Part shown: one piece after another, positions 1,339 to 63,226 of the stretch
Position numbering within the stretch: position 1 is the first letter of the stretch
Layout: every line of letters begins with the position of its first letter
NCBI GenBank assembly: GCA_015061315.1
Contig: SUWV01000001.1
Location: 62,001 to 126,000 of the forward strand
Direction of reading: 5' to 3'
DNA: 64,000 bases
DNA from: Lentimicrobiaceae bacterium
Lineage (GTDB): Bacteria; Bacteroidota; Bacteroidia; Bacteroidales; F082
The notes under the pieces: generated by a model
Database searches by the model: none
Told to the model about the DNA's origin: nothing
The model's input: only the letters and a program-made list of their open reading frames with translations
Program-made: the position numbers and the translations under genes

Positions 1339-1363
1339 AAGTTAAAAGCAAATATTACCAACT

Positions 1364-1396
1364 TTAAACCTTTAATCCTTTAATCCTTTTAAACTT
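1364..1396. repeat. Degenerate 8-nt tandem repeat (CCTTTAAT type)
   Basis: Two CCTTTAAT units followed by CCTTTTAA and flanked by AAAC/TTTAAAC fill the gap just before the cydA start. The same AAAGGATTAAAGG word occurs at 51490-51525, and related ATCCTTTC units at 52660-52705. Confidence 0.6.
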
Positions 1397-1403
1397 AAAA
1401 GAT

Positions 1404-2900
1404 ATGATTGAAAGTGCATTAGTTAATTGGTCGAGGGCTCAGTTTGCTCTCACTGCTGCCTATCACTGGATCTTTGTCCCGCTCACTTTGGGTCTCGCCG
1501 TGATAATGGCTGTTATGGAAACTATTTATGTCGTCAAGAAAGACGGGTTTTGGAAAAACACCGCCAAGTTTTGGATGAAACTCTTTGCCATTAACTTTGC
1601 TGTAGGCATCGCTACAGGCATTATCTTAGAATTTCAATTTGGCACCAACTGGAGTAATTATTCATGGTTTGTAGGCGACATCTTCGGCGCGCCGCTCGCC
1701 ATCGAAGGCATCTTCGCTTTCTTCATGGAAGCTACCTTCTTCGCCGTGATGTTCTTCGGCTGGGAGAAAATCAACAAGAAAGTTCACCTCGCCTCCACAT
1801 GGTTCGTTGCCCTCGGCTCTGCCATCTCCGCTTTATGGATCCTCATCGCCAACGCATGGATGCAGCATCCTGTCGGCATGGAGTTCAACCCCGATACTGT
1901 ACGTCACGAGATGACAGACTTCTGGGCTTTGGTGCTTAACCCTGTCGCTGTATCCAAGTTCTTCCATTCTGTCTTCAGCGGCTGGATGACAGGAGCCATC
2001 TTCGTCATCGGCGTCAGCTGTTGGTACTTACTAAGAAAACGCGAGACTAAGTTTGCGCTCGCAAGTATCAAGGTGGCTGCCATAGTAGGCATTGTAGGAA
2101 CATTCGCTGTGATGCTCAGCGGCGACAGCTCGGGAATACACGTCGCTAAATATCAGCCTATGAAACTCGCCGCTGCCGAAGGCTTAGAAGACGGAGGCAC
2201 TCGCGCTCCTTTCTCAATAGTACCTGGAGTAGAAATACCTGGAATGTTATCTATCTTAGCCACTCACGACATCGACGGCTACGTGCCCGGTATCAATCAG
2301 ATGCTCGACGGCTACACCACTCCCGACGGCGTACGTCATCTCTCGGCAGAAGAAAAGATGCAACGTGGCAAGACCGCCATCGATGCTTTCGCTAAATATA
2401 GAACATTGAAAGACAGCGACCCTCAAGCCGCTGAAGAAGCTCGTCAAATACTCGATGAAAACGTCAATTACTTCGGCTACGGCTATATCGACAGTCGCGA
2501 AGAACTCGTGCCTAATGTGACATTAGTATATTGGGCGTTCCGTGTCATGGTGGGCTTCGGAACATTCTTACTGCTTCTCATGATTGTTGTCTTGTGGATG
2601 GAATATAAAAAGAAACTCGTCAATATGAGATGGCTGCAATGGGTGTCGTTATTGTCTATTCCATTGGTTTATTTCTGCGGACAAGCAGGCTGGATCGTGG
2701 CGGAAGCTGGTCGCCAGCCATGGACGATAGAAGGCTTGCTTCCTGTCAAAGCCGCTGTCTCAAGTGTTAGCGTCGGTGCGGTACAAACAACCTTCTTCCT
2801 TTTCGTCGCCATCTTCACTCTCTTCCTCGTGATAGAGACGAGAATAATAATCAAAGCTATAAAACAAGGACCTAAAATCGAAGAACAGAAAGGAGAATAA
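1404..2900 (+). CDS. cydA: Cytochrome bd ubiquinol oxidase subunit I
   Basis: Haem-bearing catalytic subunit of the bd-type quinol oxidase, an inner-membrane enzyme that reduces O2 with high affinity. The 498-residue length is normal for the family. The N-terminal AYHWIFVPLTLGL holds His21, the equivalent of the haem b595 ligand. The Q-loop start is seen in KYQPMKLAAAEGL and the GRQPW motif in AEAGRQPWTIEGLLP. Multiple transmembrane helices are evident. It is followed after 3 nt by cydB. This enzyme lets an anaerobe or microaerobe remove oxygen or respire at nanomolar O2. Local GC is higher than in many neighbours, consistent with a well-expressed conserved gene. Confidence 0.97.
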   Translation: MIESALVNWSRAQFALTAAYHWIFVPLTLGLAVIMAVMETIYVVKKDGFWKNTAKFWMKLFAINFAVGIATGIILEFQFGTNWSNYSWFVGDIFGAPLAIEGIFAFFMEATFFAVMFFGWEKINKKVHLASTWFVALGSAISALWILIANAWMQHPVGMEFNPDTVRHEMTDFWALVLNPVAVSKFFHSVFSGWMTGAIFVIGVSCWYLLRKRETKFALASIKVAAIVGIVGTFAVMLSGDSSGIHVAKYQPMKLAAAEGLEDGGTRAPFSIVPGVEIPGMLSILATHDIDGYVPGINQMLDGYTTPDGVRHLSAEEKMQRGKTAIDAFAKYRTLKDSDPQAAEEARQILDENVNYFGYGYIDSREELVPNVTLVYWAFRVMVGFGTFLLLLMIVVLWMEYKKKLVNMRWLQWVSLLSIPLVYFCGQAGWIVAEAGRQPWTIEGLLPVKAAVSSVSVGAVQTTFFLFVAIFTLFLVIETRIIIKAIKQGPKIEEQKGE

Positions 2901-2903
2901 GTC

Positions 2904-4046
2904 ATGATAACATACGAATTTTTACAGCATTACTGGTGGTTTTTAATCGCATTACTCGGCGGACTCTTAGTGTTTCTACTCTTCGTACAAGGTGGCAACG
3001 CCTTGATTTTCCTTGCTGGAAAGACAGAAGACGAACGACAATTAATCGTCAACTCCACAGGTCGGAAGTGGGAACTTACCTTCACCACATTAGTAACATT
3101 CGGCGGCGCGTTCTTCGCCTCGTTTCCATTATTTTATAGCACCAGCTTCGGCGGAGCCTATTGGGTCTGGATTCTAATCTTGATAACATTTGTCTTCCAA
3201 GCTGTCTCTTACGAATTTCAAAACAAGGCTGGCAACCTTCTCGGTAAAAATGCCTTCCGTGCTTTCCTCACGATCAACGGTTGCCTCGCACCTTTATTAA
3301 TAGGTACTGCCGTAGGAACATTCTTCACAGGCTCAGAATTTATGGTGAATAAAAACGCCGTTGCCGACATAGGAGCGCCTGTCATAAGCCGTTGGGCAAA
3401 CAATTGGCACGGACTTGAAGCCGTCGCTAATCCATTCAACGTGGAGTTCGGACTGATGGTGATGTTCCTTGCTGTATGTCTCGGCGCCTTATATATGATT
3501 AACAATATCGACGATGATAAATTAGCGACACAGTTACGTAAGAGCCTTTTGATTTGTTTCGCTGGATTTTTAGTTATGTTGGTTCTCGTTCTTATCAACT
3601 TCATCACTATGGAAGGTTTCGCTGTCGATGCTGAAGGTAATGTCTTCATGGAGAAAGGTAAATATTTCCATAACTTGATTCAGATGCCAGCAGTGCTGAT
3701 AATGTTCTTATTAGGAGCTGTTCTGTTAGTCACAGGTGTCATAATGACATTACTGAAAAAGGAATTTAGAAGAGGAATCTGGATCACAGGACCTGGAACT
3801 GTCTTAGCTGTGATGGCGATATTTATGATAGCAGGATATAACGGCACATCATATTATCCATCGACTGCCGACTTACAAGCATCGCTTACTTTAAGTAATA
3901 GTTCATCAAGCGAATTTACCTTAAAGACGATGGCGATAGTTTCGCTGATAATTCCTTTCGTTGTAGCCTACATCGCCTATTTCTGGCGTCAAATGGATAA
4001 GAAATCCTTGACGAAAGAAGAGTTAGAAACGGGAGAGAAATATTAA
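2904..4046 (+). CDS. cydB: Cytochrome bd ubiquinol oxidase subunit II
   Basis: Second membrane subunit of the bd oxidase, 380 residues, with the N-terminal YWWFLIALLGGLLVFLLFVQ and about eight or nine transmembrane helices. The start is supported by an unusually good Shine-Dalgarno-like AGGAG at 2892-2896, overlapping the end of cydA; this is notable because SD sites are weak in the phylum. Translational coupling with cydA is likely. No cydC/D exporter genes lie nearby. Confidence 0.95.
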   Translation: MITYEFLQHYWWFLIALLGGLLVFLLFVQGGNALIFLAGKTEDERQLIVNSTGRKWELTFTTLVTFGGAFFASFPLFYSTSFGGAYWVWILILITFVFQAVSYEFQNKAGNLLGKNAFRAFLTINGCLAPLLIGTAVGTFFTGSEFMVNKNAVADIGAPVISRWANNWHGLEAVANPFNVEFGLMVMFLAVCLGALYMINNIDDDKLATQLRKSLLICFAGFLVMLVLVLINFITMEGFAVDAEGNVFMEKGKYFHNLIQMPAVLIMFLLGAVLLVTGVIMTLLKKEFRRGIWITGPGTVLAVMAIFMIAGYNGTSYYPSTADLQASLTLSNSSSSEFTLKTMAIVSLIIPFVVAYIAYFWRQMDKKSLTKEELETGEKY

Positions 4047-4086
4047 GAATCAAATAAAAATCTATCAATTATAAATAATTACTATT

Positions 4087-6264
4087 ATGAAAAAACTAAT
4101 CTTATCAATACTATTTACACTTTCGTTGACATGTCTTGCCAATAATGATGGCGACAAGACAAAATTATCATCTAACCTGATTCGTATATTGTCATCTCAA
4201 GAAGACAGTCAGACGCGTTCTGACAGAAGCATTCTCGCATTGGTAGCCTTTGTTGACAATAATGATGATATGTCATTATTTGAGAAGTACGACTGTGTCG
4301 TCAAGGCTCAGATTGGTCGTATCTATATAGTTTCAATACCGATAAATCAGATTATGCCATTATCGGAGGAGTCTGCTATAGAACGTATCGAAGCAGAGGA
4401 GATGCCGAAGCCGGCTATGGATGTGACACCACAACGCGTTAATGTTACGCCTATCTATGAAGGACAGGATCTCCCTCAGGCTTTCACCGGTGATGGCGTA
4501 ATATCAGGTATCTTCGACTGTTATTACGACTTCACCCATCCAGCATTCTTTGATGCCGATGGCTCTACACGTATCAAATATTACTATGATTTCTTATGGA
4601 AGAATGCCGATGGTACAATGGGATACGCCATAGAATCGCCTGATGAGATATTAGAGCAGCAACATTCAAACAATGTCATCAATCACACTCATGGCACTCA
4701 TGTGGCGAGTATCATGGCGGGGTCTGCCGTCGATGGGAAATATCAAGGCATAGCATACGAGAGCGACATATACCTCGTTGATTTCAACTCATATCCTGAA
4801 GATTTCGATAACCCTGATATACATACCTCTGCCACCGCGGTGTTAGGATTCAAATATATCTTCGACAAAGCCGACGAGCTTGGGAAACCCTGTGTCATCA
4901 ATTTCAGTAGCTGTACGAGTGAGATGTTCACATCACAGCGTATATTAGAGAGCGAGGCATTGGAGTCGTTGGTAGGTCCAGGTCGTATTATCGTTGCAGC
5001 AGCAGGTAACTTTGGAACCAACGCGACATATCTGATAAAAGAAGATGATGAGCAATTTGCTGGAGCATATATCACCAACGGTATCAGTGGTGCTGGCATA
5101 ATCAGTATGGACATAGTGACACCTGTTAATCAGAATATTCGTTTCGATTTCTTAGGAATGAAATTGACAGGAGACCAACAGATTGAAGGCACCATCAAGT
5201 TTGAAACAGACAGCATCGCATCAATGCAAGGTGACACCTGCATTCTAAGAACGACTGTCAGCATGGGTGATGTTGAGCTTAGAGTCTACAAGACAGACCA
5301 TGAGGACGAGAGAGGCGATGTTTTTCACGTTGACGGCAGTCTGCCAAACATGACGTATCTGATATTATGTGGTGCCACATTCCTACTCGACAGCGATGGC
5401 CCTGCATGGGTGTATAGCGATGTCTCCTACTGTCCGCTTGCCAATATAGAAGGGATGCCTGAGTATAGCTGCGCTCAGCCAGGTTATACCGTCTCATGGC
5501 CTGCCACCTTACCGTTTATTATCGCGGTGGGCGCTACTGGTTATGAGGCGACATTCACTAACATCGACGGTAACACTAATGATGAGATGCTGATGTTTGA
5601 ACCAGACGCACCAGGCTTACAAGCGAAGTTCTCCTCAATGGGACCTACTTACGACGGACTTATCAAACCTGATGTGGTAGCTCCTGGCATAAACATCAAC
5701 GCGGCATATAACAGCTTCTATTCCGATTTTGAAGGTAACAGAAAATACCTTACTTATAAGACCAAATATAATGATAAGGATTATTATTATATGGCTCAAT
5801 CTGGAACGTCAATGGCAGCCCCTGTAGTGGCTGGTGTCATAGCTTTGTGGTTAGAAGCTAACCCTAAACTCACACCTCAAGATATTCTGAACACAATAGC
5901 AGAGTGTTCTAACCACCCTGATAACACGCTGACATATCCTAATAACATTTACGGACATGGAAGTATAGATGCCTATAAAGGTCTGCTTCATGTCTTAGAT
6001 ATTGTGGATATACCATCATTGTCAAAGAAACACGCTCAAGATGTAAGATTCTATGTTGATGGCGATATGCTGAAAATTGACTTCGACGATGCTGATGCGA
6101 TGAATAATAAAATATCTGTCTCTGTCTATACATTACATGGTATCTTGGTAGCAACAGGAAACGACACCTCTATCGATGTGTCACATCTTCCCGACGGTAT
6201 CTATGCTGTTCAATTAAACACTGGCTCAGCAAAGACCTCAGGTTCCACTTTGATAAAGCTATAA
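4087..6264 (+). CDS. Secreted S8 (subtilisin) serine peptidase with T9SS-type tail
   Basis: A 725-residue protease with signal peptide 1-18 and a propeptide-like region to about residue 125. The catalytic triad is visible: Asp144 in GIFDCYYDFTHPAF, His202 in HGTHVASIMAGS and Ser575 in SGTSMAAPVVAG. The His-Ser distance of about 370 residues implies an insert (protease-associated or beta domain) in the catalytic domain. The last ~75 residues have the type A T9SS tail pattern (VYTLHGILVATG, then LPDGIYAVQL and a basic/hydrophobic end), so export to the cell surface or medium is expected. It follows cydB by 40 nt but is functionally unrelated. It ends at a strong bidirectional terminator. Natural substrates are unknown. 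Confidence 0.92.
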   Translation: MKKLILSILFTLSLTCLANNDGDKTKLSSNLIRILSSQEDSQTRSDRSILALVAFVDNNDDMSLFEKYDCVVKAQIGRIYIVSIPINQIMPLSEESAIERIEAEEMPKPAMDVTPQRVNVTPIYEGQDLPQAFTGDGVISGIFDCYYDFTHPAFFDADGSTRIKYYYDFLWKNADGTMGYAIESPDEILEQQHSNNVINHTHGTHVASIMAGSAVDGKYQGIAYESDIYLVDFNSYPEDFDNPDIHTSATAVLGFKYIFDKADELGKPCVINFSSCTSEMFTSQRILESEALESLVGPGRIIVAAAGNFGTNATYLIKEDDEQFAGAYITNGISGAGIISMDIVTPVNQNIRFDFLGMKLTGDQQIEGTIKFETDSIASMQGDTCILRTTVSMGDVELRVYKTDHEDERGDVFHVDGSLPNMTYLILCGATFLLDSDGPAWVYSDVSYCPLANIEGMPEYSCAQPGYTVSWPATLPFIIAVGATGYEATFTNIDGNTNDEMLMFEPDAPGLQAKFSSMGPTYDGLIKPDVVAPGININAAYNSFYSDFEGNRKYLTYKTKYNDKDYYYMAQSGTSMAAPVVAGVIALWLEANPKLTPQDILNTIAECSNHPDNTLTYPNNIYGHGSIDAYKGLLHVLDIVDIPSLSKKHAQDVRFYVDGDMLKIDFDDADAMNNKISVSVYTLHGILVATGNDTSIDVSHLPDGIYAVQLNTGSAKTSGSTLIKL

Positions 6265-11929: not shown

Positions 11930-12165
11930 TCTATGAGACTACAAGACAACGAGACAACAAGTAGAGACGTGACACTAATATGGTTGATAAATCTTTATAT
12001 GAAAATAACTAAAACATATTTCAACCATATTATGGTGCGTCTTAATTAAGTCTACGAGACAACGAGACAACAAGACAACAAGTAATTGATAATTATTAAC
12101 TATTAATTCTACATTTTACATTGTTAATTGTTAATTGTCAATTGTTAATTGTCAACTATCAATAC
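11930..12165. repeat. Composite repeat: octamer arrays flanking a GACG hairpin
   Basis: Fills the gap after the lamin-tail gene. 11932-11970 and 12046-12083 are degenerate 8-nt arrays of GACAACRA type (GACAACGA, GACAACAA). Between them is an inverted repeat, AATATGGTTGA (11977-11987) with TCAACCATATT (12021-12031), bounded by AGACG...CGTCT (11965 to 12042). 12112-12160 is a 7-nt TTGTTAA/TTGTCAA array reaching the end of the DUF1893 gene. Confidence 0.75.
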
Positions 12166-18242: not shown

Positions 18243-18296
18243 CTCTATTCATTTACTTGTTGACTCGTTTACTCATTGACTTGTCGACTTTATAAT
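18243..18296. repeat. Degenerate 8-nt tandem repeat (GTTGACTC type)
   Basis: Consecutive octamers ATTTACTT, GTTGACTC, GTTTACTC, ATTGACTT and GTCGACTT in the divergent purH/recJ gap (18128-18396). The rest of that gap is AT-rich with T tracts. Confidence 0.7.
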
Positions 18297-25188: not shown

Positions 25189-25195
25189 AATAATT

Positions 25196-25336
25196 TACAA
25201 TTAACAGTTTACAATTAGCAGTTATTAATTACTTGTTGACTTATTGAGACGCATCAATTACATATCTTTTATTTTCATAGGTGTAATATGCTACGTCTCT
25301 ACTTGGTGACTGTTGTCTTGTAGACTCGTAGACTTA
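25196..25336. repeat. Composite repeat with GACG hairpin and octamer array
   Basis: Fills the gap between convergent arginase-like and ruvC genes. 25196-25232 has TTTACAATTA-type units. A hairpin follows with arms 25246-25263 and 25281-25299 (AGACGCATCAATTACAT pairing imperfectly with the second arm). Then come octamer units at 25305-25336. The left arm plus loop is nearly identical to 41664-41694. Confidence 0.75.
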
Positions 25337-31856: not shown

Positions 31857-34442
31857 ATGAAAAAGATTGCATTATTATTCTTTTCATTGATAACGATGTG
31901 TTATGTTCAGGCACAGACTGTCATAACAAAAGATTTCAATGATTACAAAGAAGGAGAGATCTTGAACGGACAAGACAACTGGAAGGCGAGAGCGCACAGT
32001 GCAGGTGGAGGACAGTTGAAGATTGATTATTTGGGTGATGGTTTGCCGACAACTCCAGATGAGACATTAGGTGTGTTTTTTAATACAGGTAACACCAACT
32101 TCGGTGAAATTGCCACACACAAATCGACACCTGATTTTCAGTTTGATTTTTCTGAAGGTGGAACTATAGAAATAGAATTGGACGTTTATCGTAACTGGTG
32201 GGGAACACTTTTCGGTGTCGGTTATGATGCTGACGGTGATGGTGTTGTATTACCTCCAATGAATTATGAAACCACAAATCCTAATCCTAATCTTCCAAGT
32301 AAAGACGGTGGTGTTTATTTTGTAACGACAGGAGTAGATGCCAGACCAATGTTCTTCAACGGTATTGTGTTGCCTGACAATACAGTTCCTGTTGATTTCG
32401 ATTACGATTATACAGGTTGGACACGTTGGAAGATAATGATTGACTTAGAAGCAAATGATAAAGCTGGTAGTGTCACTTTATTTGCCGATCATGGTTGTTT
32501 GGGTGAGTTTCAGCCAATACCAGAAATTCAGGGTATCAATGCAGGTCTCACTCCAGGCTCTGGCGATTGTAAAGACCCGGCTATGTGGGACGGAATATTT
32601 TTCTTAAATAGTTCCAAGGCTGGATACGATAATTTGTTAGTTCGTCACATTCCAGCAGGTTTATCATCACAATTCATTGATTTTGCATCTATTAGCGATC
32701 AACTTGTCTCAGCGGCTCCTATTACCTTGGAGGCTTCTGCAACATCAGGATTAGCTGTCACTTTTGAACTCTTGGAAGGTCCTGCAACATTGGATGGTAA
32801 CATATTAACTCTTACCAAAGAACCAGGTGTTGTTAAAGTTAGAGCATCTCAAGAAGGTAACGATAGCTGGCAGGCAGCTCCTTCAGTGACTCGTACTTTT
32901 GAAGTTATTAACCCTGATGATTTCACACCTGAAATTACAATACGTCGTCCATACGATGGAACAAAAGTTTATGTAAATGATTTAGAATCACCAGTTATAT
33001 TAGTATTAAGCGCTTATATTGAACATGGCGATGCTATTAAATTTGAATCTGTTACTTGCGACATCGACGGTGAGACTGTAGAACTTATGACAGCTTATCC
33101 TGATGATCCAGACAATGGTTATTGGTACGCTCAATGGACTCCTTCAAAATATGGCGCACATAATTTGACAGCTACAATTGAACAGTCGGGCGGTAAAGTG
33201 ACATCGTTATCTAATAGTTTTGAAGTGACAAATACTTTCGATAACATCAGCGTCACAGCTTTCGATGGCGATTTGGTAGTATCTCCTCAAAAACAAAATG
33301 CTTTCGGCGACTATGCTTTCCCAACACATGTCAATGCATTCAATAATATTAAGTTGAATTATAGCCACAATTGTGCAGGCAATTGTGATCCATACGATAG
33401 AGTTGGCTATTGCCGCATTAAAAACTATCGCGGAGAATGGGTAGAGCTTTATCGTTATGTTACACCTTTCGGCGTGGAATGTGATGCTACTATGGACGTG
33501 ACAGACTTCACCTCATTGCTTCAAGGTTTGGTTGAGTTTGAACTTTATTTCCAGACATGGGACGGTCAAGGTTATAATCCTACGGCAATTTTTGATTACA
33601 CTAAAGGAACACCTGAATATAAATATGTCGATATGAAAGAGATTTGGTACGGTATCTTCGACTTCGGTGATTATGCCAACAAACAGCCTGTTCCTGAAAA
33701 AGTCTATTATTTTGAAGAGAATGTTGAAAAAGCTAACTTGAAGATTATCACTACAGGACATAACTGGAGCAGCGGTACCAACGACGCTTATAATACAGGA
33801 AATGCTGCTGAGTTCTATGAGGCAACTCATAACATTTATGTAGATGATAAAAAAACTTTCGATCAGCATTTGTGGCAAAACTGTAATCCTAATCCTGCAG
33901 GCTGCCAACCTCAAAACGGTACTTGGACTTATCAGCGTTCAGGATGGTGCCCAGGTTCTTTGGCAAAAGTTTGGGACTACAATATCGATAGTTATATTGC
34001 TAATGACAGCATTAAATTATTCTATGAATTTGATCCTTCCTATTTAGATGAATGTCATCCTAATCACCCTGATTGTAAAGACGGTTTCACTTGTAAGAAA
34101 TGTTCTGCTGCCGACAATCCAATTTTGAGAGTCTCTGGCAAAATAGTTTCTTATAGTAATAACATTGAAGTTCTCAATGGTGGTGAAGTTGATTTACAAG
34201 AGAATACGATGGATTATAATGTTGATATGTTCCCTAATCCAGCAAACGATGTTTTGAGATTGACAACAGATTACGACAAAGGCAAGGTTTGTGTTCACAT
34301 CTTGAATATGCAAGGACAAGAAGTTCGTAACTTTGTTTTCAGCGGCACTACAACAATCGACATATCCGATTTAACACCAGGAATGTATTTCGTTAATGTT
34401 ATCGGAGGACATGTTGTGACGAAGAAACTTGTTGTTAATTAA
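31857..34442 (+). CDS. Secreted PNGase F-like peptide:N-glycosidase with T9SS tail
   Basis: 861 residues; signal peptide to ~20 (ending VQAQ). Residues ~20-275 look like a lectin/laminin-G-type domain, ~280-350 an MBG/Ig-like repeat, ~360-460 another Ig-like domain. Residues ~465-785 resemble the two domains of Elizabethkingia PNGase F: CDPYDRVGYC (Asp514 = catalytic Asp60), DVTDFTSLLQG, LYFQTWDG, AAEFYEATH (Glu652 = Glu206), then NGTWTYQRSGWCPG. The family's Glu118 (TETW) is Gln566 here. The T9SS type A tail starts VDMFPNPANDVLRL. Would release N-glycans from glycoproteins outside the cell, if active. Homology positions are from memory. Confidence 0.82.
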   Translation: MKKIALLFFSLITMCYVQAQTVITKDFNDYKEGEILNGQDNWKARAHSAGGGQLKIDYLGDGLPTTPDETLGVFFNTGNTNFGEIATHKSTPDFQFDFSEGGTIEIELDVYRNWWGTLFGVGYDADGDGVVLPPMNYETTNPNPNLPSKDGGVYFVTTGVDARPMFFNGIVLPDNTVPVDFDYDYTGWTRWKIMIDLEANDKAGSVTLFADHGCLGEFQPIPEIQGINAGLTPGSGDCKDPAMWDGIFFLNSSKAGYDNLLVRHIPAGLSSQFIDFASISDQLVSAAPITLEASATSGLAVTFELLEGPATLDGNILTLTKEPGVVKVRASQEGNDSWQAAPSVTRTFEVINPDDFTPEITIRRPYDGTKVYVNDLESPVILVLSAYIEHGDAIKFESVTCDIDGETVELMTAYPDDPDNGYWYAQWTPSKYGAHNLTATIEQSGGKVTSLSNSFEVTNTFDNISVTAFDGDLVVSPQKQNAFGDYAFPTHVNAFNNIKLNYSHNCAGNCDPYDRVGYCRIKNYRGEWVELYRYVTPFGVECDATMDVTDFTSLLQGLVEFELYFQTWDGQGYNPTAIFDYTKGTPEYKYVDMKEIWYGIFDFGDYANKQPVPEKVYYFEENVEKANLKIITTGHNWSSGTNDAYNTGNAAEFYEATHNIYVDDKKTFDQHLWQNCNPNPAGCQPQNGTWTYQRSGWCPGSLAKVWDYNIDSYIANDSIKLFYEFDPSYLDECHPNHPDCKDGFTCKKCSAADNPILRVSGKIVSYSNNIEVLNGGEVDLQENTMDYNVDMFPNPANDVLRLTTDYDKGKVCVHILNMQGQEVRNFVFSGTTTIDISDLTPGMYFVNVIGGHVVTKKLVVN

Positions 34443-34472
34443 GAATTAAGAATGAAGAATTAAGAATTTATA
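34441..34472. repeat. GAATTAAGAAT-type short repeat
   Basis: Units AAGAATTAAGAAT, GAAGAATTAAGAATT immediately after the PNGase-like stop. Confidence 0.45.
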
Positions 34473-34528: not shown

Positions 34529-34566
34529 TTATTGTCTTTGTGTCTCTGAGTCTCTGCGTCTTTAAA
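34529..34566. repeat. Degenerate 8-nt repeat overlapping the DUF2148 stop
   Basis: Units TGTCTTTG, TGTCTCTG, AGTCTCTG, CGTCTTTA. The last unit contains the complement of the DUF2148 gene's TAA stop (34562-34564). The AGTCTCTG/CGTCTCTA words recur inside the ManC coding region. Confidence 0.7.
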
Positions 34567-35166: not shown

Positions 35167-37227
35167 ATGGAAAATAACGACAAACAATTCAAGCGTTATA
35201 CGGTAACGACAGCTTTACCTTACGCTAATGGTCCTGTACATATCGGTCACTTAGCCGGTGTCTATATCCCTGCCGACACTTACGTCCGTTACCTCCGAAT
35301 GAAAGGTGAAGAGGTTTTGTTTGTCGGCGGCTCCGATGAACACGGAGTGCCTATCACTATCAAAGCCGAAAAAGAAGGCTGCACACCTCAAGACATCGTC
35401 GATAGATACCATAATATCATCAAAGACTCTTTCGAAAAACTTGGAATAAGCTACGACATATACTCTCGTACTTCTTCTAAAACTCATCACGAGACAGCAG
35501 CTGCTTTCTTCAAGAAACTCTACGAAGACGGCAAATTCATCGAAAGAGAGACAGAACAATTCTTCGACCCGGAACGTAACAAATTCTTATCCGACCGTTA
35601 TATAATAGGTACTTGTCCTAAGTGCGGCAACGACCACGCTTATGGCGACCAATGCGAGAAATGCGGTTCTTCGATGAGTCCTGAGGAATTGATAAATCCT
35701 CACTCAGCTCTCAGCGGCGCGAAACTCGTAAAGAAAGCTACCAAACACTGGTATCTTCCTTTAGACCAATATGAACAATGGCTTCGCGACTGGATAATTG
35801 AAGGTCATAAAGAATGGAAACCTAACGTATACGGTCAGGTGAAAAGCTGGCTCGACAATGGTTTGCAGCCTCGTGCTGTGACTCGCGACCTCGACTGGGG
35901 CGTGCCTGTGCCTTTCGAAGAAGCCGACGGCAAAGTGCTTTACGTATGGTTCGATGCCCCGATAGGTTACATCTCAAATACAATAGAACATTGCAGAGAA
36001 AAAGGTACCGACTGGGAAAAATGGTGGAAAGATGAAGATACTAAACTCGTTCATTTCATAGGTAAAGATAACATCGTGTTCCACTGTATCATCTTCCCTT
36101 GCATGCTCAAAGCTTACGGCGATTATATCGTGCCAGAAAACGTTCCTGCTAACGAATTCCTTAACCTTGAAAACGATAAGATTTCTACTTCTCGTAACTG
36201 GGCTGTATGGTTGCACGAATATCTTGAAGAGTTCCCTGGAAAACAAGATGTGCTTCGTTACGTTTTGACAGCTAACGCTCCTGAGACAAAAGATAATAAC
36301 TTCACTTGGAAAGATTATCAAGACAGAAATAATAATGAGTTACTCGCAGTGTTCGGTAATTTCGTAAATCGTTCTTTGGTCTTGACTCATAAATATTTTG
36401 AAGGTAAAGTTCCTGCTTTGACAAATCTCAATGAGAAAGATAACGCAGCTATAGAAGAGATGAATCAATATCCTGACAAGATTGCTCATCTTCTCGACAC
36501 ATATAAATTCCGTGAGGCTTTGTCAGAATTGATGAATCTTGCTCGTCTCGGAAATCGTTATCTCACCGAAAACGAACCTTGGAAACAATTCAGGACAGAT
36601 CCTGAAAGAGTGAAAACAGTCCTCGCAGTGTCGTTGCAGATAGTGGCAAAACTCGCTATCCTTTCAGAACCATTCCTTCCTTTCTCTGCTAAGAAGTTAC
36701 AAGCTATGATAGGTTTGGAAGTAAGCGGATGGAATCAGGCTAAGGAGACAGTTTTGTTAAATGAAGAAAGTCAAATTGGTGAAGTCGAGTTGTTGTTCAC
36801 AAAAGTGGAAGACGAGACTGTAGCAGCACAGATTAAGAAGTTGGAAGATACTAAGAAACAGAATGAACTCAACGCATGGGCTCCAAATCCTGTCAAACCT
36901 AATACTAATATTGACGAATTTGGTAAGATGGACATCAGAGTTGGTACTGTCTTAGAATGTGTCAAAGTTCCAAAAGCTGATAAGTTATTACAATTCTTGA
37001 TTGACGACGGCATGAATAAACGTACCATCGTTTCAGGTATTGCGAAATATTATCCTAATCCAGAAGAGTTGGTTGGCAAGCAAGTTTGCTTCATTGCTAA
37101 CTTCGAGCCTCGTAAGTTGAAAGGCATCGTCAGTGAAGGCATGATTCTTTCGGCTGAAGACAAAGACGGACGTTTGGTTGTCGTAACACCAAGTCAGCCT
37201 GTCGCTCCAGGAAGTAATGTAGGATAA
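35167..37227 (+). CDS. metG: Methionyl-tRNA synthetase
   Basis: 686 residues, a long bacterial class I enzyme with C-terminal tRNA-binding (EMAP/Trbp111-like) domain. HIGH motif at residues 25-28 in [14 protein letters not shown]; zinc-knuckle CPKC and CEKC at about 150-168; KMSKS-type loop KISTSRNW near residue 337. The C-terminal domain (~585-686) has [13 protein letters not shown] and [18 protein letters not shown]. Bounded by its own promoter and a bidirectional terminator. Confidence 0.98.
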
Positions 37228-37244
37228 AAGTCTAAAGTCTAAAG
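37228..37244. repeat. GTCTAAA heptamer pair
   Basis: Two GTCTAAA units directly after the metG stop; the same unit is at 43414-43424. Confidence 0.5.
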
Positions 37245-37281: not shown

Positions 37282-37340
37282 TGTCTACAGACTACGGTCT
37301 ACTGTCTACAGACTACGGTCTACTGTCAACAGACCTAAGT
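37282..37340. repeat. Perfect 21-bp tandem duplication of heptamer units
   Basis: The 21-nt unit at 37282-37302 (TGTCTACAGACTACGG...) is repeated exactly at 37303-37323, with a third partial copy to 37335. Each 21-mer is three related heptamers. The pgk stop lies 29 nt beyond. Confidence 0.85.
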
Positions 37341-38616: not shown

Positions 38617-38625
38617 AATATTTAA

Positions 38626-38688
38626 GTCTTAAGTCTACAGTCTACAGACTACAGACATTGTTAATTGTCAATTGTTAATTGTTCCAAG
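38626..38688. repeat. Two adjacent 7-nt repeat arrays encoding the GT2 C-terminus
   Basis: 38630-38655 is a GTCTACA array (AGTCTACAGTCTACAG...). 38658-38688 is a TTGTTAA/TTGTCAA array. The second overlaps the glycosyltransferase 3' end: its last residues LTIDN and its TAA stop are read from the repeat. Confidence 0.8.
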
Positions 38689-39419
38689 GTTTCATATTTA
38701 TGTTTTGTGGCTTTTGCTGCTACTTTGCACATTACGAAACCTTCTTTGCCATCTAAGAAACCTAATCGGAAGAAGTAATGTTGTATGAAGAAATAAATCG
38801 GTGAGATGATTTTCAACAAGGATGCACATTTCTTTCCTTTATCGAAATAATGCTGAGCTCTTAATTCGGCAAACTTAAAGACTTGTTTCTCGAAGTCTTC
38901 AGGTTTAGCATACGAATAATGTAGCAGATCGCCTTTAAGATGAACCTCTTTCACTTTTGTTGAAAACTTAATCACTTCATGAACTATTCCTTCCCACTTC
39001 CCTATCTTACGATTCCAGATTCTTATTTTCTTATCAGGATAAAATCCCGAATGATGAATCCATTTTCCACAGTAATTGTTCAATCTGTTAAAAGAAAAAA
39101 CAACGTCGGTGTCAAAGTCAGAGTCTTTAATCTTAAGAATCGATTTCTTCAATTCATCAGAGAGCACCTCATCGGCGTCGATAGATAGAATCCAGTCGTG
39201 AGATGCGATGTTGTTAGCCAAGTTTTTCTGTTCTGAATATCCTAACCATTTCTGTTCAACGAATTTGACGGCGAACTCCTCGCATATCATTTTCGTGTTG
39301 TCGGTAGATAACGAGTCAACGACTACAATTTCGTCTGCCACGTCTTGAAGAGATTCGAGGCACTGACGTATTTTGTCTTCTTCGTTTAATGTTATTATGG
39401 TCGCGGATATTTTTTTCAT
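38661..39419 (-). CDS. Family 2 glycosyltransferase (WaaE/KdtX-like)
   Basis: 252 residues. N-terminal ISATIITLNEEDKIRQCLES, DEIVVVDSLSTDNT and the acceptor/metal block DWILSIDADEVLSDEL match LPS-core beta-glucosyltransferases of the WaaE/KdtX kind; also IHHSGFYPDKKIRIWNR. Likely adds a sugar to the lipid A core or a similar acceptor. The C-terminal five residues are repeat-derived. Lies 15 nt after trkA. Confidence 0.88.
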   Translation of the reverse strand: MKKISATIITLNEEDKIRQCLESLQDVADEIVVVDSLSTDNTKMICEEFAVKFVEQKWLGYSEQKNLANNIASHDWILSIDADEVLSDELKKSILKIKDSDFDTDVVFSFNRLNNYCGKWIHHSGFYPDKKIRIWNRKIGKWEGIVHEVIKFSTKVKEVHLKGDLLHYSYAKPEDFEKQVFKFAELRAQHYFDKGKKCASLLKIISPIYFFIQHYFFRLGFLDGKEGFVMCKVAAKATKHKYETLEQLTIDN

Positions 39420-40801: not shown

Positions 40802-41629
40802 TTATATAATATTAAAACTATCCCAGTCGCGATGTACTGTGAAATAATTTCTGAAACTCGTCAGCGACTCCATGTCGATCTCGACTTCCAAAATATCTTC
40901 CTTATCGCCTTCTATCTCAGCTACCGTCCTTCCTTTTCCATTCACGACTTTTGTCTCACCGATATAAGGTATCTTGTTATGGTCGATGCCAACTCTGTTG
41001 ACACCGATGAAATAAGCCTGATTTTCTATTGCTCTTGCAGGGATAAGAGTGTTCCAGATATGAGACTTCTGCATAGGCCAATTAGCTATCACTATCGCTA
41101 GGTCGTATCCAAACACGCCGTCTTTGTAGCTGTTACGCAGCCATACAGGGAAACGCAGGTCGTAGCATACGAAAGGTCTTATGCGCCATCCTTTATAATT
41201 GATGGTGATAAGATTTTCTCCAGTGCATAACTGCTCCTTCTCGCCACCCATGAAAGTATGACGCTTGTCGTAAGTCTGATAACTTCCATCAGGATTCATC
41301 CAAACGAAAGTATTGTGGAATTTAAGAATCTGAGAATTTGATGGAGTCTGTAGACCGTAGACTGTAGACTGTAGACCGAACGCAGTGATAAAGCTTCCGC
41401 AGATAGCGCAGTTTTTTTCTTTGGCTTTCTCGCGGAGCCATGTCATCGTAGGACCGTTTTCGTCTTCGGCGAAGAGTTCAGGTTCTGCTGGGAAGCCCGT
41501 AGTGAAGGTCTCTGGCAGTATGATAATATCGGTATCATCTTGAATCTTCATAAAAAGATTATCAAGATGTTTGAAATTCTCTTCAGGATTACGAGCGATA
41601 ATATCGCTTTGTACGCAAGCTATCTTCAT
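40802..41629 (-). CDS. Nitrilase-superfamily amidase with in-frame repeat insertion
   Basis: A 275-residue carbon-nitrogen hydrolase of the omega-amidase (YafV/Nit2) type. Catalytic triad: Glu40 in DIIILPETFTTGFP, Lys122 in TYDKRHTFMGG and Cys in IRPFVCYDLRFP. Between the strands that normally run ...ICGSFI to HNTFVW there is an extra segment, about residues 83-103 (FGLQSTVYGLQTPSNSQ), encoded by a heptameric GTAGACY repeat (41346-41377) of the intergenic type. Reading frame and triad are intact, so the protein may still work. Likely hydrolyses alpha-keto-acid omega-amides in the cytoplasm. Confidence 0.9.
   Translation of the reverse strand: MKIACVQSDIIARNPEENFKHLDNLFMKIQDDTDIIILPETFTTGFPAEPELFAEDENGPTMTWLREKAKEKNCAICGSFITAFGLQSTVYGLQTPSNSQILKFHNTFVWMNPDGSYQTYDKRHTFMGGEKEQLCTGENLITINYKGWRIRPFVCYDLRFPVWLRNSYKDGVFGYDLAIVIANWPMQKSHIWNTLIPARAIENQAYFIGVNRVGIDHNKIPYIGETKVVNGKGRTVAEIEGDKEDILEVEIDMESLTSFRNYFTVHRDWDSFNII
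41346..41380. repeat. Heptamer repeat inside the nitrilase CDS
   Basis: Units GTAGACC, GTAGACT, GTAGACT, GTAGACC. The reverse complement shares a 23-nt identical stretch with intergenic 43424-43446. It is translated in frame as LQSTVYGLQ-type residues. Confidence 0.85.
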
Positions 41630-41663
41630 TTTTTAAGCAGTCATTATCCACCATTTATTCTCA

Positions 41664-41755
41664 AGACGCATCAATTACATATCATTTATTTTCATTGATG
41701 TAATTGATACGTCTCTACAATTGTTAATTGTTAATTGTCAACTGTTAATTGCAAA
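41664..41755. repeat. GACG hairpin element plus TTGTTAA array at ROK 3' end
   Basis: Hairpin with 17-nt arms 41664-41680 and 41698-41714 (one mismatch) and 17-nt loop. About 31 nt of the left arm and loop match 25247-25278 with one difference. It is followed by a TTGTTAA/TTGTCAA array (41718-41750) that carries the TGA stop and last residues of the ROK gene. Confidence 0.8.
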
Positions 41756-43408: not shown

Positions 43409-43411
43409 TTT

Positions 43412-43508
43412 TTTAAGTCTAAAGTCTACAGTCTACGGTCTACAGTCCTAAGTTATTGTACATTGTTAATTGTAAATTGTTAATTGTACATTGTAAATTG
43501 TACATTGT
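43412..43508. repeat. GTCTACA array followed by TTGTAAA/TTGTTAA array
   Basis: 43414-43450: GTCTAAA, GTCTACA, GTCTACG, GTCTACA, GTCC. 43455-43508: about seven units of TTGTTAA, TTGTAAA and TTGTACA. Fills the whole exosortase-ClC gap and abuts the ClC stop. Confidence 0.85.
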
Positions 43509-48059: not shown

Positions 48060-48195
48060 AAGTCCGCTAAGGTCCGAACCACACGAAACTTCACGAACAA
48101 TTTTCGTGTCAATTTCGCGTTATTTCGCGAACAAATCTCGCGAACAAACTTTCGCGTCAAATTCGTGTTATTTCGTGGACAATTCTCGTGGACAA
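48060..48195. repeat. Nested CGCGAA/TTCGCG inverted and tandem repeats
   Basis: About nine alternating units of TTCRCGAAC and TTTCGYGTNATTTCGYG occupy the gap after mnmA, e.g. TTTCGCGTTATTTCGCGAAC and CTCGCGAACAAACTTTCGCG, each able to form small hairpins. No ORF. Confidence 0.75.
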
Positions 48196-48200
48196 AAAAA

Positions 48201-53467: not shown

Positions 53468-53523
53468 TTTTAAATCTGAAAATCTGAGAAACTGAAAGAC
53501 TGAAAATCTGAGAAGTAGTCAAT
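53467..53523. repeat. CTGAAAAT/CTGAGAAA octamer array
   Basis: Units AATCTGAA, AATCTGAG, AAACTGAA, AGACTGAA, AATCTGAG, AAGTAG fill the 58-nt gap between the GT2 start and the sugar transferase stop. Confidence 0.75.
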
Positions 53524-54138: not shown

Positions 54139-55620
54139 TTATTTTAAATTGGACAAAGTCTGTTGGCTGTTGTCAGTTGTCTGTTGACAAAAGTTCCCGT
54201 GGAATAACAAGAAATAGAAAAACACGAAGAACATAATTCCCATCTGACGTTCAAGCACCGACTCAAACAATGAGTTAAAAGCGACGATCAGCAATAATGA
54301 GAAAAATACAATGTCGAAGTTTTTGTTCTTAATCCAGAGAAAGATAGGATATATGAAGAAGGTAATCAGCAGAATCAGTCCCATAACACCGACAGCTATT
54401 ATTGTGTCGGAGAATTGGTTGTGGGCGTTGCAATCACTATTTATAGCCACGTTTATATTTATATATGTTGCCAGATTTTCTCTAACAGAATTATAATCGC
54501 AATTATATTTCTCTGCCAGTTCTTCTGCATATTTGAATATTGAATTATTAAGGTTGCCTCCTGACTTCTTATCGATACTATCAAGGCATTTTCTTCTTTC
54601 CTGATCAAAATTGTCAGAAGTTTTTATTGGTTTTATCTTCTGTATTATTTCTTCTTTTTTTCTCAAATAACTATTTAACGTCTCTTCATTTCTGTCGCCC
54701 GCACCTACGCCAAACCAAAACTTATCCATCAGCAAATCTTTATATCCTAAGGTTATGCCGATTCTTCTGTCTTGTTTTTCAATGTTATCAAGATTTGTAA
54801 TGGTTTCTGTAATTCTTTTGATGCTTTTATTGAAAACGATGGAACTGATAATCACTATACATATAATTGTTACACCGACACTTATTCCTAATTTCGTTTC
54901 TTTTTTAACGAAAGTAAGCCAAAACCATATAATGATAAAGATAATTGCGACACAGAGCAGACCTGCTCTTGAACTTGAAAGAGCAATGAAAAGTATCAAT
55001 GTGACTACAGTAAGAATGTTGAATAACTTTAATCCTATTTTATTTTCATTAAATAATTCATAAAAACAGAAACTTATTCCTAAGCAGGAATATATAGATG
55101 TGTAAGAATGATGAATGTATCCAGTACCTTTTTTTAACAAATCTGGTTCATAAAAACGACTTGCTTTCGCTCCTTCAAATATCACATCATACACAGCCCA
55201 AATAAGATTTATCACGAACAATGTCAATATTCCTATGACAAAATAATACATCACGGTTCTGATTCTGTCTTTTGTTAGATATGATAAATTTGATGTCATG
55301 AAGAACAATGGAAAAAGCAAGAATGGCAGTTTCTTTCCTATCTGCACTCTTGCTTCGGCGGTGTTTTCTGAATATAAAAAACTTATCGCATAGATTACCC
55401 AAAATGCGATGAAGATAAAATATGCGAATTTGTTTCTGTATTGTAATTCGTTTTTCTTAAAACCTTCTTCAAAAATTCCTTTTAATATTGTACATACAAA
55501 AAGTCCTATCATGACGTATGTCGCGATTCGCCATGACATAGGAACGAAAAAAGCGAATAATACTAAAAAAATATATTCGCTTAGTTGAAATGGTTTTAAA
55601 CCTTTAAATGACAATAACAT
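54139..55620 (-). CDS. O-antigen ligase/polymerase (Wzy/WaaL-like)
   Basis: A 493-residue membrane protein with about 10-12 helices and a large periplasmic loop (~310-400) after FWFGVGAGDRNEE; HNQFSDTIIAVGVMGLILL is the typical HNxF motif of the O-antigen ligase/polymerase family. The C-terminal tail (FCQQTTDNSQQTLSNLK) is encoded by an octamer repeat. Polymerises or ligates the polysaccharide. Confidence 0.88.
   Translation of the reverse strand: MLLSFKGLKPFQLSEYIFLVLFAFFVPMSWRIATYVMIGLFVCTILKGIFEEGFKKNELQYRNKFAYFIFIAFWVIYAISFLYSENTAEARVQIGKKLPFLLFPLFFMTSNLSYLTKDRIRTVMYYFVIGILTLFVINLIWAVYDVIFEGAKASRFYEPDLLKKGTGYIHHSYTSIYSCLGISFCFYELFNENKIGLKLFNILTVVTLILFIALSSSRAGLLCVAIIFIIIWFWLTFVKKETKLGISVGVTIICIVIISSIVFNKSIKRITETITNLDNIEKQDRRIGITLGYKDLLMDKFWFGVGAGDRNEETLNSYLRKKEEIIQKIKPIKTSDNFDQERRKCLDSIDKKSGGNLNNSIFKYAEELAEKYNCDYNSVRENLATYININVAINSDCNAHNQFSDTIIAVGVMGLILLITFFIYPIFLWIKNKNFDIVFFSLLLIVAFNSLFESVLERQMGIMFFVFFYFLLFHGNFCQQTTDNSQQTLSNLK
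54146..54192. repeat. CTGTTGTC-type octamer repeat encoding the Wzy-like tail
   Basis: Units GTCTGTTG, GCTGTTGT, CAGTTGTC, TGTTGAC. Read in frame as the last ~15 residues of the ligase-like gene. Confidence 0.65.
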
Positions 55621-59259: not shown

Positions 59260-60342
59260 TTATTTTTGCCAGTCTTTAATATGCTGTTCTTCTTCTTTTT
59301 TACAAATCAGAAGAGTGTTGTCGCTTTCAGCAACGATGAAATTGTCTAATCCTTGTATCACGACTTTACGTTCTGAAGGTGTATGTATTACACAATTTTT
59401 ACAATCAATAAGATTGATGTTTTGTCCAACCGAAGCGTTATTGTTTTCGTCTTGTTCGAGATGAGTGTAAAGACTTCCCCATGTGCCGAGGTCGCTCCAT
59501 CCGAAGTCGGCCGGATAGACATAAACCTCTTTAGATTTTTCCATCACAGCATAGTCTATCGAGATATTAGGACATGTTGGGAAATATTGATTTATGATTT
59601 CCTGTTCTTTATCTGAATAGAAATAAGGTTCTATCTTATCGAAGACTGAAGTCAATTCCGGGACTAAGGCAGTGATAGTATTGACTACCATTTTAGCGTT
59701 CCAGATGAAGATGCCAGCGTTCCAATAGTAGCCGCCTTCAGCAAGATAAGATTTCGCGGTTTCAAGATTCGGTTTTTCTTTAAATGCCTCTACTTTATGA
59801 ATTGATTCAGACGTTAGTCTCTGCGTCTCTACTTGTTGACTCGTTGTCTCGTTGCCTTGTAGACTCTTAATATATCCATACCCTGTTTCCGGACGAGTTG
59901 GCATCATTCCTAATGTAAGAATAGCTTCGCGATTCTCGGTAAATTCCAAAGAATTTTTGATGACATTTCTGAAAGTATTTACGTCGAGGACAATATGATC
60001 GGCTGGAGAGAACACGAGATTTGCTTCAGGATATTTAGCATAAATCTTACGGGCCACATATTCTATGCAAGGAGCGGTGTTTCTCATGCAAGGCTCCAAA
60101 AGTATTTGAGACTCAGGAATACATGGGAGTTGTTCTCTTACTATATTTTTATACTTCTCTGAAGTTACTATCCAAACGTTTTCAATTGGGATCACTGTCT
60201 CGAAACGTTCTACAGTAAGTTGAATAAGAGATTTACCAATGCCGAGAACATCGATAAATTGTTTAGGCTTTTCTGGTGTACTCATCGGCCAAAAACGAGA
60301 GCCGACGCCACCAGCCATTATGATAAGGTGATTTTTGTTCAT
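59260..60342 (-). CDS. manC: Mannose-1-phosphate guanylyltransferase with in-frame repeat insertion
   Basis: 360 residues; makes GDP-mannose from GTP and mannose-1-P. N-terminal HLIIMAGGVGSRFWPMSTP and KPKQFIDVLG, FSPADHIVL, RPETGYGYIK and KVEAFKEKPNLETA are diagnostic. Between GYGYIK and HKVEAF lie about 17 extra residues (SLQGNETTSQQVETQRL) encoded by an octamer repeat at 59813-59867 that closely matches the intergenic repeat at 11932-11970. Frame is kept. The insert falls in a surface loop region of the family, so function may be retained. Confidence 0.92.
   Translation of the reverse strand: MNKNHLIIMAGGVGSRFWPMSTPEKPKQFIDVLGIGKSLIQLTVERFETVIPIENVWIVTSEKYKNIVREQLPCIPESQILLEPCMRNTAPCIEYVARKIYAKYPEANLVFSPADHIVLDVNTFRNVIKNSLEFTENREAILTLGMMPTRPETGYGYIKSLQGNETTSQQVETQRLTSESIHKVEAFKEKPNLETAKSYLAEGGYYWNAGIFIWNAKMVVNTITALVPELTSVFDKIEPYFYSDKEQEIINQYFPTCPNISIDYAVMEKSKEVYVYPADFGWSDLGTWGSLYTHLEQDENNNASVGQNINLIDCKNCVIHTPSERKVVIQGLDNFIVAESDNTLLICKKEEEQHIKDWQK
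59813..59867. repeat. Octamer repeat inside the manC CDS
   Basis: Plus-strand units TAGTCTCTG, CGTCTCTA, CTTGTTGA, CTCGTTGT, CTCGTTGC, CTTGTAGA, CTC. On the coding strand it reads CTACAAGGCAACGAGACAAC..., almost the same as CTACAAGACAACGAGACAAC at 11939-11958. Confidence 0.85.
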
Positions 60343-60669: not shown

Positions 60670-60815
60670 ATTTTTAAAGTTTATAGTGTATAGTTGATAG
60701 TTTATAGTAGTTGTAAAGTTTATAGTTGATAAGTTGCTGCTAAGATAAACTTTTAAACTTAACAAATTTCAACTTGCGAACTTCTATTAACTATAAACTA
60801 TTAACTATGAACTTT
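60670..60815. repeat. TTTATAGTT/TAACTATAAAC repeat block
   Basis: Degenerate units GTTTATAG, TGTATAGT, TGATAGTT, TATAGTAG, and inverse TAACTATAAAC, CTATTAACTATG fill the gap upstream of the mutarotase. It keeps an open frame upstream of the gene, creating a false N-terminal extension. Confidence 0.7.
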
Positions 60816-63184: not shown

Positions 63185-63226
63185 GTTTAATTTACAATTT
63201 ACAGTGTACAATTAACAATTAGTTTT
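63185..63226. repeat. TTTACAATT/TGTACAATTAACAATT repeat
   Basis: Units TTTACAAT, TTTACAGT, GTACAATT, AACAATTA upstream of the DegT start; same family as 25196-25232 and 43455-43508. Confidence 0.6.

Follow-up and report, generated by a model that had tools for sequence, protein, structure and literature searches.

What are the short tandem arrays that recur in the gaps of the Lentimicrobiaceae genome analyzed here, and which process placed them there? The question is raised by the convergent gap between metG and pgk, where 2.6 copies of AAAGTCT at the metG stop codon are followed by an inverted repeat and then by TGTCTACAGACTACGGTCTAC, which occurs twice. A preliminary description of the window (the whole stretch of 64 kb that was analyzed) had reported a perfect 21-bp duplication at 37282-37323, and the two copies are indeed present without a mismatch. 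TRF assigned the array at 37282-37334 a period of 21, 2.5 copies and a value of 96%. The focal genome (2.47 Mb, 49 contigs, 95% complete) belongs to an uncultured member of the Bacteroidales. The closest relatives of its methionyl-tRNA synthetase, the metG product, are from MAGs of uncultured Bacteroidales of roe deer colon (96 and 95%), and further relatives are from many gut MAGs, mostly of ruminants. The assembly gave no match for 16S, and a single tRNA was the only Rfam match in the window at gathering scores.

Arrays were called by TRF and by our own tandem-array detector, the latter for periods of 4 to 15 with a score threshold of ≥ 10. The sample of the focal genome covered 456 kb, i.e., the window and 20 sampled stretches, with 41.7 kb of gap sequence and 414.5 kb of genes. 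Dinucleotide shuffles of each gap served as nulls, 20 for the window and 10 for the 456-kb sample. The genes of the window were picked by hand from the list of open reading frames and those outside it by a script that greedily takes the longest open reading frame; starts and short genes may be wrong. The genome collections contain one genome per species, so that all comparisons are between species. Labels with G denote congener genomes (the genus set comprises 99 including the focal one) and labels with L sampled loci.

At this threshold, the 48 gaps of the window contained 10, 5, and 3 arrays with periods of 7, 8, and 14, compared to means of 0.0, 0.1, and 0.05 in the shuffles; the genes of the window contained 4, 1, and 0. 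In the gaps of the 456-kb sample the corresponding numbers were 78, 77, and 22 versus 0.4, 0.3, and 0.1 after shuffling, each remaining period gave 0-3 arrays, and the genes contained 23, 32, and 2. Although short arrays occur also in shuffled sequence at the lowest score threshold, an origin by chance in AT-rich gaps is refuted by this excess of about 200-fold, restricted to periods 7, 8, and 14 in the 456-kb sample, and can be dismissed. The family of 7/8-nt tandem arrays proposed in the preliminary description is real. The period-specific scan with a shuffle test that was suggested there showed enriched arrays throughout the sampled 456 kb, and because the arrays are enriched over shuffles and spread across the sampled genome, the objections foreseen there fall away. 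The arrays of the window are listed in Table 1.

Table 1. Tandem arrays in the 64-kb window (positions are those of the window).
Feature	Position	Strand	Detection or remark
Octamer array CTTTAAAC	1362..1389		TRF and detector
Octamer array ACGAGACA, convergent gap	12054..12082		TRF and detector
Heptamer array, TTGTTAA type, extends over stop codon of right-hand gene	12083..12162		
Period-14 array TTTACAATTAACAG	25194..25223		TRF and detector
Heptamer array AATTAAG, begins over stop codon of gene 31857-34442	34437..34468		
Octamer array, TCTCTGAG type	34533..34561		Detector
AAAGTCT, 2.6 copies, at metG stop	37227..37244		TRF and detector
Focal array, 21-bp unit of three heptamers, convergent metG-pgk gap	37282..37334		
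Heptamer array AGTCTAC	38622..38656		Detector
Heptamer array ATTGTTA over stop codon of gene 38661-39419	38657..38683		
Heptamer array GTCTACA in carbon-nitrogen hydrolase gene 40802-41629, codes for GLQSTVYGLQ	41350..41376	-	
Heptamer array AATTGTT over a stop codon	41719..41745		Different words in G055, G009, G057
Heptamer array AGTCTAC	43415..43447		Different words in orthologous gap of relatives
Period-14 array ATTGTACATTGTTA	43455..43508		TRF and detector
Octamer array CCTTTCAC over a stop codon	52662..52700		
Octamer array AAATCTGA	53472..53505		Detector
Heptamer array coding for C-terminal tail of Wzy_C protein 54139-55620	54158..54186	-	
Octamer array in mannose-1-phosphate guanylyltransferase-like gene 59260-60342	59831..59854	-	
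Heptamer array TTTATAG, upstream of likely start of rhaM-like gene	60673..60708		Identical in G043
Heptamer array CTATTAA	60784..60813		Identical in G043
Heptamer array AATTTAC	63189..63221		Detector

Of the 21 sites given in the preliminary description, 16 carry an array of period 7, 8, or 14 at a score of ≥ 10 and 18 at ≥ 9, but those at 18243, 23873, and 25305 are too degenerate for the detector and have no matching TRF row. Most sites are intergenic as described, with the exception of 41346 and 59813 within conserved genes and of 54146, which codes for a C-terminal tail; site 60670 precedes what is likely the real start of a rhaM-like gene. Hairpin repeats with GAGACG...CGTCTC ends (window positions 11960-12045, 25230-25300, and 41640-41720; L206:13980-14161) are often adjacent to arrays, and a 27-nt part of the L206 repeat is tandemly repeated, which is not so in L198. 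Another convergent gap of the window (48094-48196) contains a 48-bp tandem repeat of 2.2 copies with CGCGAACAAA motifs. Array densities per 100 kb at periods 7, 8, and 14 were 23.5, 24.8, and 5.9 in the focal genome, 33.0, 4.0, and 12.0 in G043, 5.7, 0.8, and 2.6 in 33 other congener loci, and 3.2, 1.8, and 1.0 in 44 loci from outside the genus.

According to the preliminary description, unit sequences differ between sites. Many words do occur, but the units are related; they fall into families that are common within one genome and in many cases confined to a single species or a small clade. The units in the 456-kb sample are few, the leading heptamers being AACAATT (equivalent to TTAACAA) and ACAGTCT (equivalent to GTCTACA) and the leading octamer families AACAAGTC, AAAATCTG, and ACTCCATC. 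When arrays up to 1500 nt apart in one locus were not paired, a common unit was found in 501 of 5630 pairs of period-7 arrays within the focal genome, compared to 0.6% when the letters of the units were shuffled and to 115 of 9095 pairs formed between genomes, which corresponds to a 15-fold and a 7-fold excess, respectively. For octamers, the unit was shared in 254 of 6239 pairs within the focal genome, in 0.08% after shuffling, and in 41 of 2147 pairs between genomes, an excess of 50-fold over letter-shuffled units and of only 2-fold over between-genome pairs. Small samples vary, same-genome sharing of heptamers being 0 of 15 in G009 and 13 of 48 in G023. The distinct units of the focal genome align to a common degenerate pattern, with 6.2 bits for octamers (4.2-4.4 shuffled) and 5.0 bits for heptamers (3.8-4.0 shuffled).

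Exact searches in the 99 genomes of the genus set revealed how private these words can be. (GTCTACR)3 gave 27 overlapping hits in the focal genome, which merged to 19 places, and no match in the 98 congeners; the reversed control was without match. Three copies of AGWCAACR were present in 10 of the 99 genomes, with 161 hits in the focal genome; the nine others had between 5 and 57 hits each. The reversed control of this search had 0 hits in those ten genomes and hits in 28 others; it is not neutral, because those other species have arrays of the reversed word. Such hits were frequent in G010 (20), G052 (14), and G076 (14), as were those of the reversed control of an AAAGTGG search in G041 (23) and G004 (20), suggesting that arrays of other words are abundant in these five genomes. 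The AAAGTGG triple itself was found in 6 of the 99 genomes and was absent from the focal one; in G023 AAAGTGG leads in the sampled loci, yet the exact triple is absent. Within the AGWCAACR family, the mean frequency of GAC versus GTC was 0.93 in G047, 0.84 in G009, 0.50 in G050, 0.43 in the focal genome, and 0.28 in G042, values which rest on 5 to 21 loci per genome. This spread between genomes was reached by 0 of 5000 permutations, that of the second variable base by 1 of 5000. The hits used were the first 40 of 161 in the focal genome, 29 of 57 in G009, all 35 in G042, all 15 in G047, and 9 of 11 in G050; two overlapping G050 rows and the listed rows of G041 (5), G027 (10), and G043 (5) were set aside, and G057 and G059 were not included. 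The likeness of variants within genomes looks like concerted evolution of dispersed loci.

Words also change at a given place. The gap at 43409-43508 is flanked by the same two genes in relatives, and arrays were detected in the orthologous gap of four of them, each with a word unlike the focal one: the CTAATTC type in G055, the AAAGGCT type in G009, the AGTTCTT type in G047, and the AACTTAGT type in G051. By eye, weaker and different arrays are seen in G057, G059, and G043 and none in G042. From 593 orthologous gap pairs, the 241 in which both gaps have ≥ 25 nt were counted: arrays were present in both gaps of 46 pairs, in one gap of 56, and in neither of 139, with gaps reused across genomes and pairs thus not independent. 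With flanks below 97%, a limit which also removed the same contig in duplicate (G021/L018, G023/L040), array presence was shared beyond chance, with odds of 4.3, 7.6, and 39 in three length classes of these non-independent pairs. The words were changed in most of the orthologous array pairs listed and kept, for example, among L012, L014, L022, and L029.

The close species G039 and G075 have a median gene identity of 93.4%, and the median identity of their 27 array-free gaps is 0.97. Among the eight array gaps, three differ by one heptamer (one of them has also a separate tandem duplication and another small loop changes), one is unchanged, and in four the array was replaced or is present in one species only. 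A gap identity below 0.6 was found for 5 of 8 array gaps versus 3 of 27 array-free gaps (p 0.007). In a separate comparison of gap pairs, from which gaps above 1500 nt and those near locus ends were dropped, GTTTATA units are located opposite ATTGATA units in the pair G021/L017, with a flank identity of 97.4%. The arrays at 60673 and 60784 are identical in the focal genome and G043, at 93%. The one-heptamer differences, the replacements, the changed words at orthologous sites, and the variant frequencies that differ between genomes support the active slippage or copying put forward in the preliminary description.

In the 456-kb sample, 41 arrays lie at least 45 nt inside genes. In the carbon-nitrogen hydrolase (PF00795) encoded at 41346, the array stretch is located between SFIT and HNT and for most of its length has no aligned counterpart in 2e11, the closest solved homologue. 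In G059 and in G027 (locus L149) this stretch is short, whereas it is coded by four copies of GTCTACA in the focal genome, by GACAACA heptamers followed by octamers in G055, by octamers of the GACAACAA type in G009 and G057, by the octamers AACTCAGT in G047 and AGTCACCA in G042, and by GACAACAGTCAACA in G051; the stretch in G043 is less regular. At site 59813, in the mannose-1-phosphate guanylyltransferase-like gene, 2x5s, the solved homologue, is shorter by 13 residues. For 13 in-gene arrays with a comparable orthologue, three or fewer residues across the array stretch were identical in 10; the others had 7 of 9 (L124:2746), 5 of 12 (L123:6281), and 13 of 13 (60673, which is really a leader). 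Two octamer arrays lie in the DNA polymerase I gene of L120 (positions 4394-4518 in gene 2681-5380 on the minus strand) and code for residues 287-329, which are situated between domains of the enzyme, after the 5′-3′ exonuclease part.

Ten in-gene arrays share one position within C-terminal domains, and all four tested proteins with such an array match the type A sorting domain of the type IX secretion system (TIGR04183) above cut-off. The focal genome has 18 proteins with YGR near the C terminus, and arrays were detected in 10 of them. The stretch after IYD[IV]YGR is of the TTVYSLQ type in five, of the QQVNETTSQQV type in eight, and of the LCCRDASNAS type in five of the 18. These three alternative inserts occur in type IX secretion-type proteins of L124, L125, L126, L127, L128, and L136; no link to an array was established for the LCCRDASNAS type. 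Repeat DNA thus becomes protein repeatedly at the same loop, including in type IX secretion sorting domains, and the low-complexity inserts of such proteins may derive from copied repeat DNA.

With respect to gene ends, 75 arrays are situated within 20 nt of 3′ ends and 36 within 20 nt of 5′ ends. A stop codon is overlapped by 46 of the 126 arrays near 3′ ends, and in 34 of these 46 the three units that follow contain the stop triplet again, once or more. As neither 7 nor 8 is divisible by three, a single stop triplet in the word is enough to close every reading frame within 21 or 24 nt. Surviving arrays occupy gaps between genes, sites directly behind or across stop codons, C-terminal tails, and variable stretches of proteins, and the stop triplet is often part of the unit in those adjacent to stop codons.

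The periods, the partly private words, the one-unit differences, the replacement in place, and the survival in tolerant sites lead us to the reading, with a probability of roughly 0.6, that the arrays arise from an ongoing mutational process which acts genome-wide, copies, expands, and replaces words, and is filtered by selection. Array words would be copied from locus to locus within a genome, since the loop inside a gene has no reason to carry GTCTACA unless it came from elsewhere and since variants are alike within a genome; such copying would give each species a small, partly private set of words with similar variants across dispersed loci. Individual loci would gain or lose 7- or 8-nt units, most simply by slippage of the growing strand, and whole arrays would be replaced, in line with the replacements and one-heptamer differences seen between species. 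Fold-back copying or template switching during gap or break repair might bring in foreign words and leave an array followed by its own inverted complement, and selection would remove harmful arrays. Loops of this size (7-8 nt) reportedly go unrecognized by MutS, which fits with the intact mutS of the focal genome. The pattern can be explained without assuming a function. Shared words could likewise arise through selection for certain words, and the mutational process leaves unexplained why the periods are 7 and 8 and why the purine-rich strand is biased at 3′ ends. The only twofold within-genome excess of octamers, the 0 of 15 for heptamers in G009, the unchanged arrays, the spread of some arrays inside longer repeats, and the size of the close-pair test (eight gaps) also speak against it. 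A more specific and rather doubtful version is a self-reinforcing process of this Bacteroidales genus that copies 7/8-nt words between dispersed loci, without flanks, into gaps and protein loops and homogenizes them in each genome; if it were true, every species would end up with a vocabulary of its own and would be continually supplied with new coding insertions.

The arrays might instead be selected 3′-end elements, i.e., terminator arms or mRNA-stabilizing hairpins whose structure is kept while the sequence drifts. We regard this as unlikely, although several observations agree with it. The purine-rich strand leaves the gene in 75 of 82 arrays located ≤ 30 nt from 3′ ends in the focal genome, in 28 of 30 in the clade, and in 19 of 27 elsewhere in the genus (p 0.05), while the values at 5′ ends (21 of 32, 15 of 22, and 6 of 15, respectively) are not significant; ties in purine content (3 and 6 focal arrays) were dropped, and array-free gaps show a weak purine skew at 3′ ends. 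Neighboring arrays are inverted complements in 18 of 72 focal cases versus 160 of 1939 pairs from other gaps and in 12 of 26 versus 78 of 872 in the clade, whereas in the rest of the genus direct orientation is about as frequent as inverted (10 versus 11 of 25). Of 94 arrays near 3′ ends, 27 have a complementary stretch within 100 nt (0.287 versus a null of 0.092), which is located downstream in 25 of the 27, and tandem gaps with arrays fold better, with z below -2 in 59% and 71% versus 44% without arrays. However, about 70% of the arrays near 3′ ends lack a pairing partner, array-free convergent gaps fold as well as array-bearing ones, and neither in-gene arrays nor shared words are explained. 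Terminator hairpins as the general function of the arrays were rejected, as only a minority of arrays pair. Termination may have been taken on at some sites, which does not account for coding copies or private words. Among focal gaps of ≥ 40 nt, arrays are present in 74 of the 118 tandem, in 19 of the 32 convergent, and in 10 of the 34 divergent gaps. The deficit between divergent genes (10 of 34 versus 93 of 150 in the focal genome) has p values of 0.0009 in the focal genome, 0.017 in the clade, and 0.06 in the rest of the genus.

Slightly less probable still is a dispersed discrete mobile repeat, STRR- or MITE-like, that spreads by transposition. Words common to dispersed loci, the occurrence of array-less alleles, and the flanks shared by some same-word arrays would suit such an element. 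Against it, the flanks of same-word arrays are mostly unrelated, with a median local score of 7 versus 6 for random pairs, and many words, two periods, and unit-sized changes are unexpected of one element. The 95th percentile of the flank score was 19 versus 10 for random pairs, and about 1 in 20 pairs was beyond the random range, which indicates that a few arrays spread inside longer repeats. Dispersal of a longer element was rejected, flanks being mostly unshared.

It appears improbable that the repeats are added by an enzyme dedicated to writing them, be it a telomerase-like reverse transcriptase that uses an RNA template, of which DRT10 is an example, or one of another kind. Private words per genome and the purine-rich outgoing strand at 3′ ends could be read in favor of such a writer, and bacterial reverse transcriptases that make tandem-repeat DNA are described in the available part of PMC12632851. 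Several words and two periods per genome would, however, require several templates, and the focal genome, 95% complete, has a single RVT_1 match beside phage-like genes, on which ground a telomerase-like or DRT reverse transcriptase was set aside as improbable. This match (L191:1006-2334, minus strand; focal contig C36:16359-16961) has phage-like neighbors and looks like the reverse transcriptase of a diversity-generating retroelement, judged by eye from its motifs. The search of the focal genome, which covered reverse transcriptases, found no dedicated array-writing enzyme. Loss of mismatch repair or of a hairpin nuclease was likewise rejected, MutS1 and SbcD matches over cut-off being present in the focal genome. 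Across the genus, such matches were found in 90 (MutS1) and 71 (SbcD) of 99 genomes, and in the sample their presence does not track array density, since the array-poor G075 has SbcD and the array-richer G051 has no match.

Heptamer repeats of bacteria have been noted since 1990, in Calothrix, and heptanucleotide arrays of cyanobacteria are known as STRRs. The resemblance to these repeats drawn in the preliminary description holds as a likeness: the focal arrays are dispersed and mostly in gaps, with 78 of period 7 compared to 0.4 after shuffling. Unlike heptamer repeats with period 7 only, the focal genome has 77 gap arrays of period 8. The arrays thus work like heptamer simple sequence repeats or STRRs but are not confined to period 7, so that they are not plain members of this class. 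Private words, octamers as common as heptamers, and coding insertions are features for which the available parts of the sources contain no mention in STRRs or long simple sequence repeats. The Calothrix heptanucleotides are mentioned in PMC4692102, and the survey of Mrazek (2007), as cited in the accessible part of PMC4679880, ranked heptamers first in abundance among the long simple repeats of most genomes and offered slippage as an explanation.

As far as the available text of PMC4692102 goes, the GGGAATC and GGGGAYT heptamers of Xanthomonas and Nostoc are dispersed near ORFs, downstream on the coding strand and upstream on the non-coding strand, with few repeats between divergent ORFs and with inverted pairs. 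They are placed between the same genes, and their length and sequence vary between related species; each lineage has one G-rich word, and 83% of the repeats are at the same place in related species. By this account, the focal arrays are similar in being dispersed heptamer arrays with inverted pairs, same-gene placement, and variation in length and sequence. They differ in having many words and periods of both 7 and 8, in that the word itself changes and is not kept at most orthologous sites, and in that arrays enter proteins. The main words AACAATT, ACAGTCT, AACAAGTC, and AAAATCTG have, by eye, no run of three G on either strand and, in contrast to the G-rich repeats of that account, appear to lack quadruplex-type G runs. 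The strand rule reported there agrees with the focal 3′ ends (75 of 82) and divergent gaps (10 of 34), while the 5′ ends (21 of 32) are not significant; the match in 3′-end strand bias and divergent-gap deficit (PMC4692102) is a hint of one common process.

TAACTGA direct repeats were reported for Beggiatoaceae, cyanobacteria, and some Bacteroidetes in the available portion of PMC4679880, with heptamers scattered in gaps, mixed heptamers in some Bacteroidetes, and indels in 7-nt increments between related Cyanothece strains. In Beggiatoaceae, TAACTGA is located mostly just before start codons and other heptamers are rare (PMC4679880). Judged from that portion, the focal heptamers are likewise scattered in gaps and differ by one heptamer between species; unlike one-word repeats before starts, they comprise many words, with 75 arrays at 3′ and 36 at 5′ ends. 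DRT10 makes tandem-repeat cDNA of a defined word and needs its reverse transcriptase and ncRNA, as described in the part of PMC12632851 at hand. Short tandem repeats of a defined word are common to this product and the arrays, but no such reverse transcriptase was recognized in the focal genome, and chromosomal insertion by DRT10 is not described in that part (PMC12632851).

Among the matches listed, no literature account of multi-word 7/8-nt arrays in Bacteroidales was recognized. Heptamer repeats are without a settled mechanism, and one-unit differences between close species make the mechanism testable. The closest known kind is the heptamer repeats of cyanobacteria and Xanthomonas; what is new here is that the arrays are multi-word and fast-changing.
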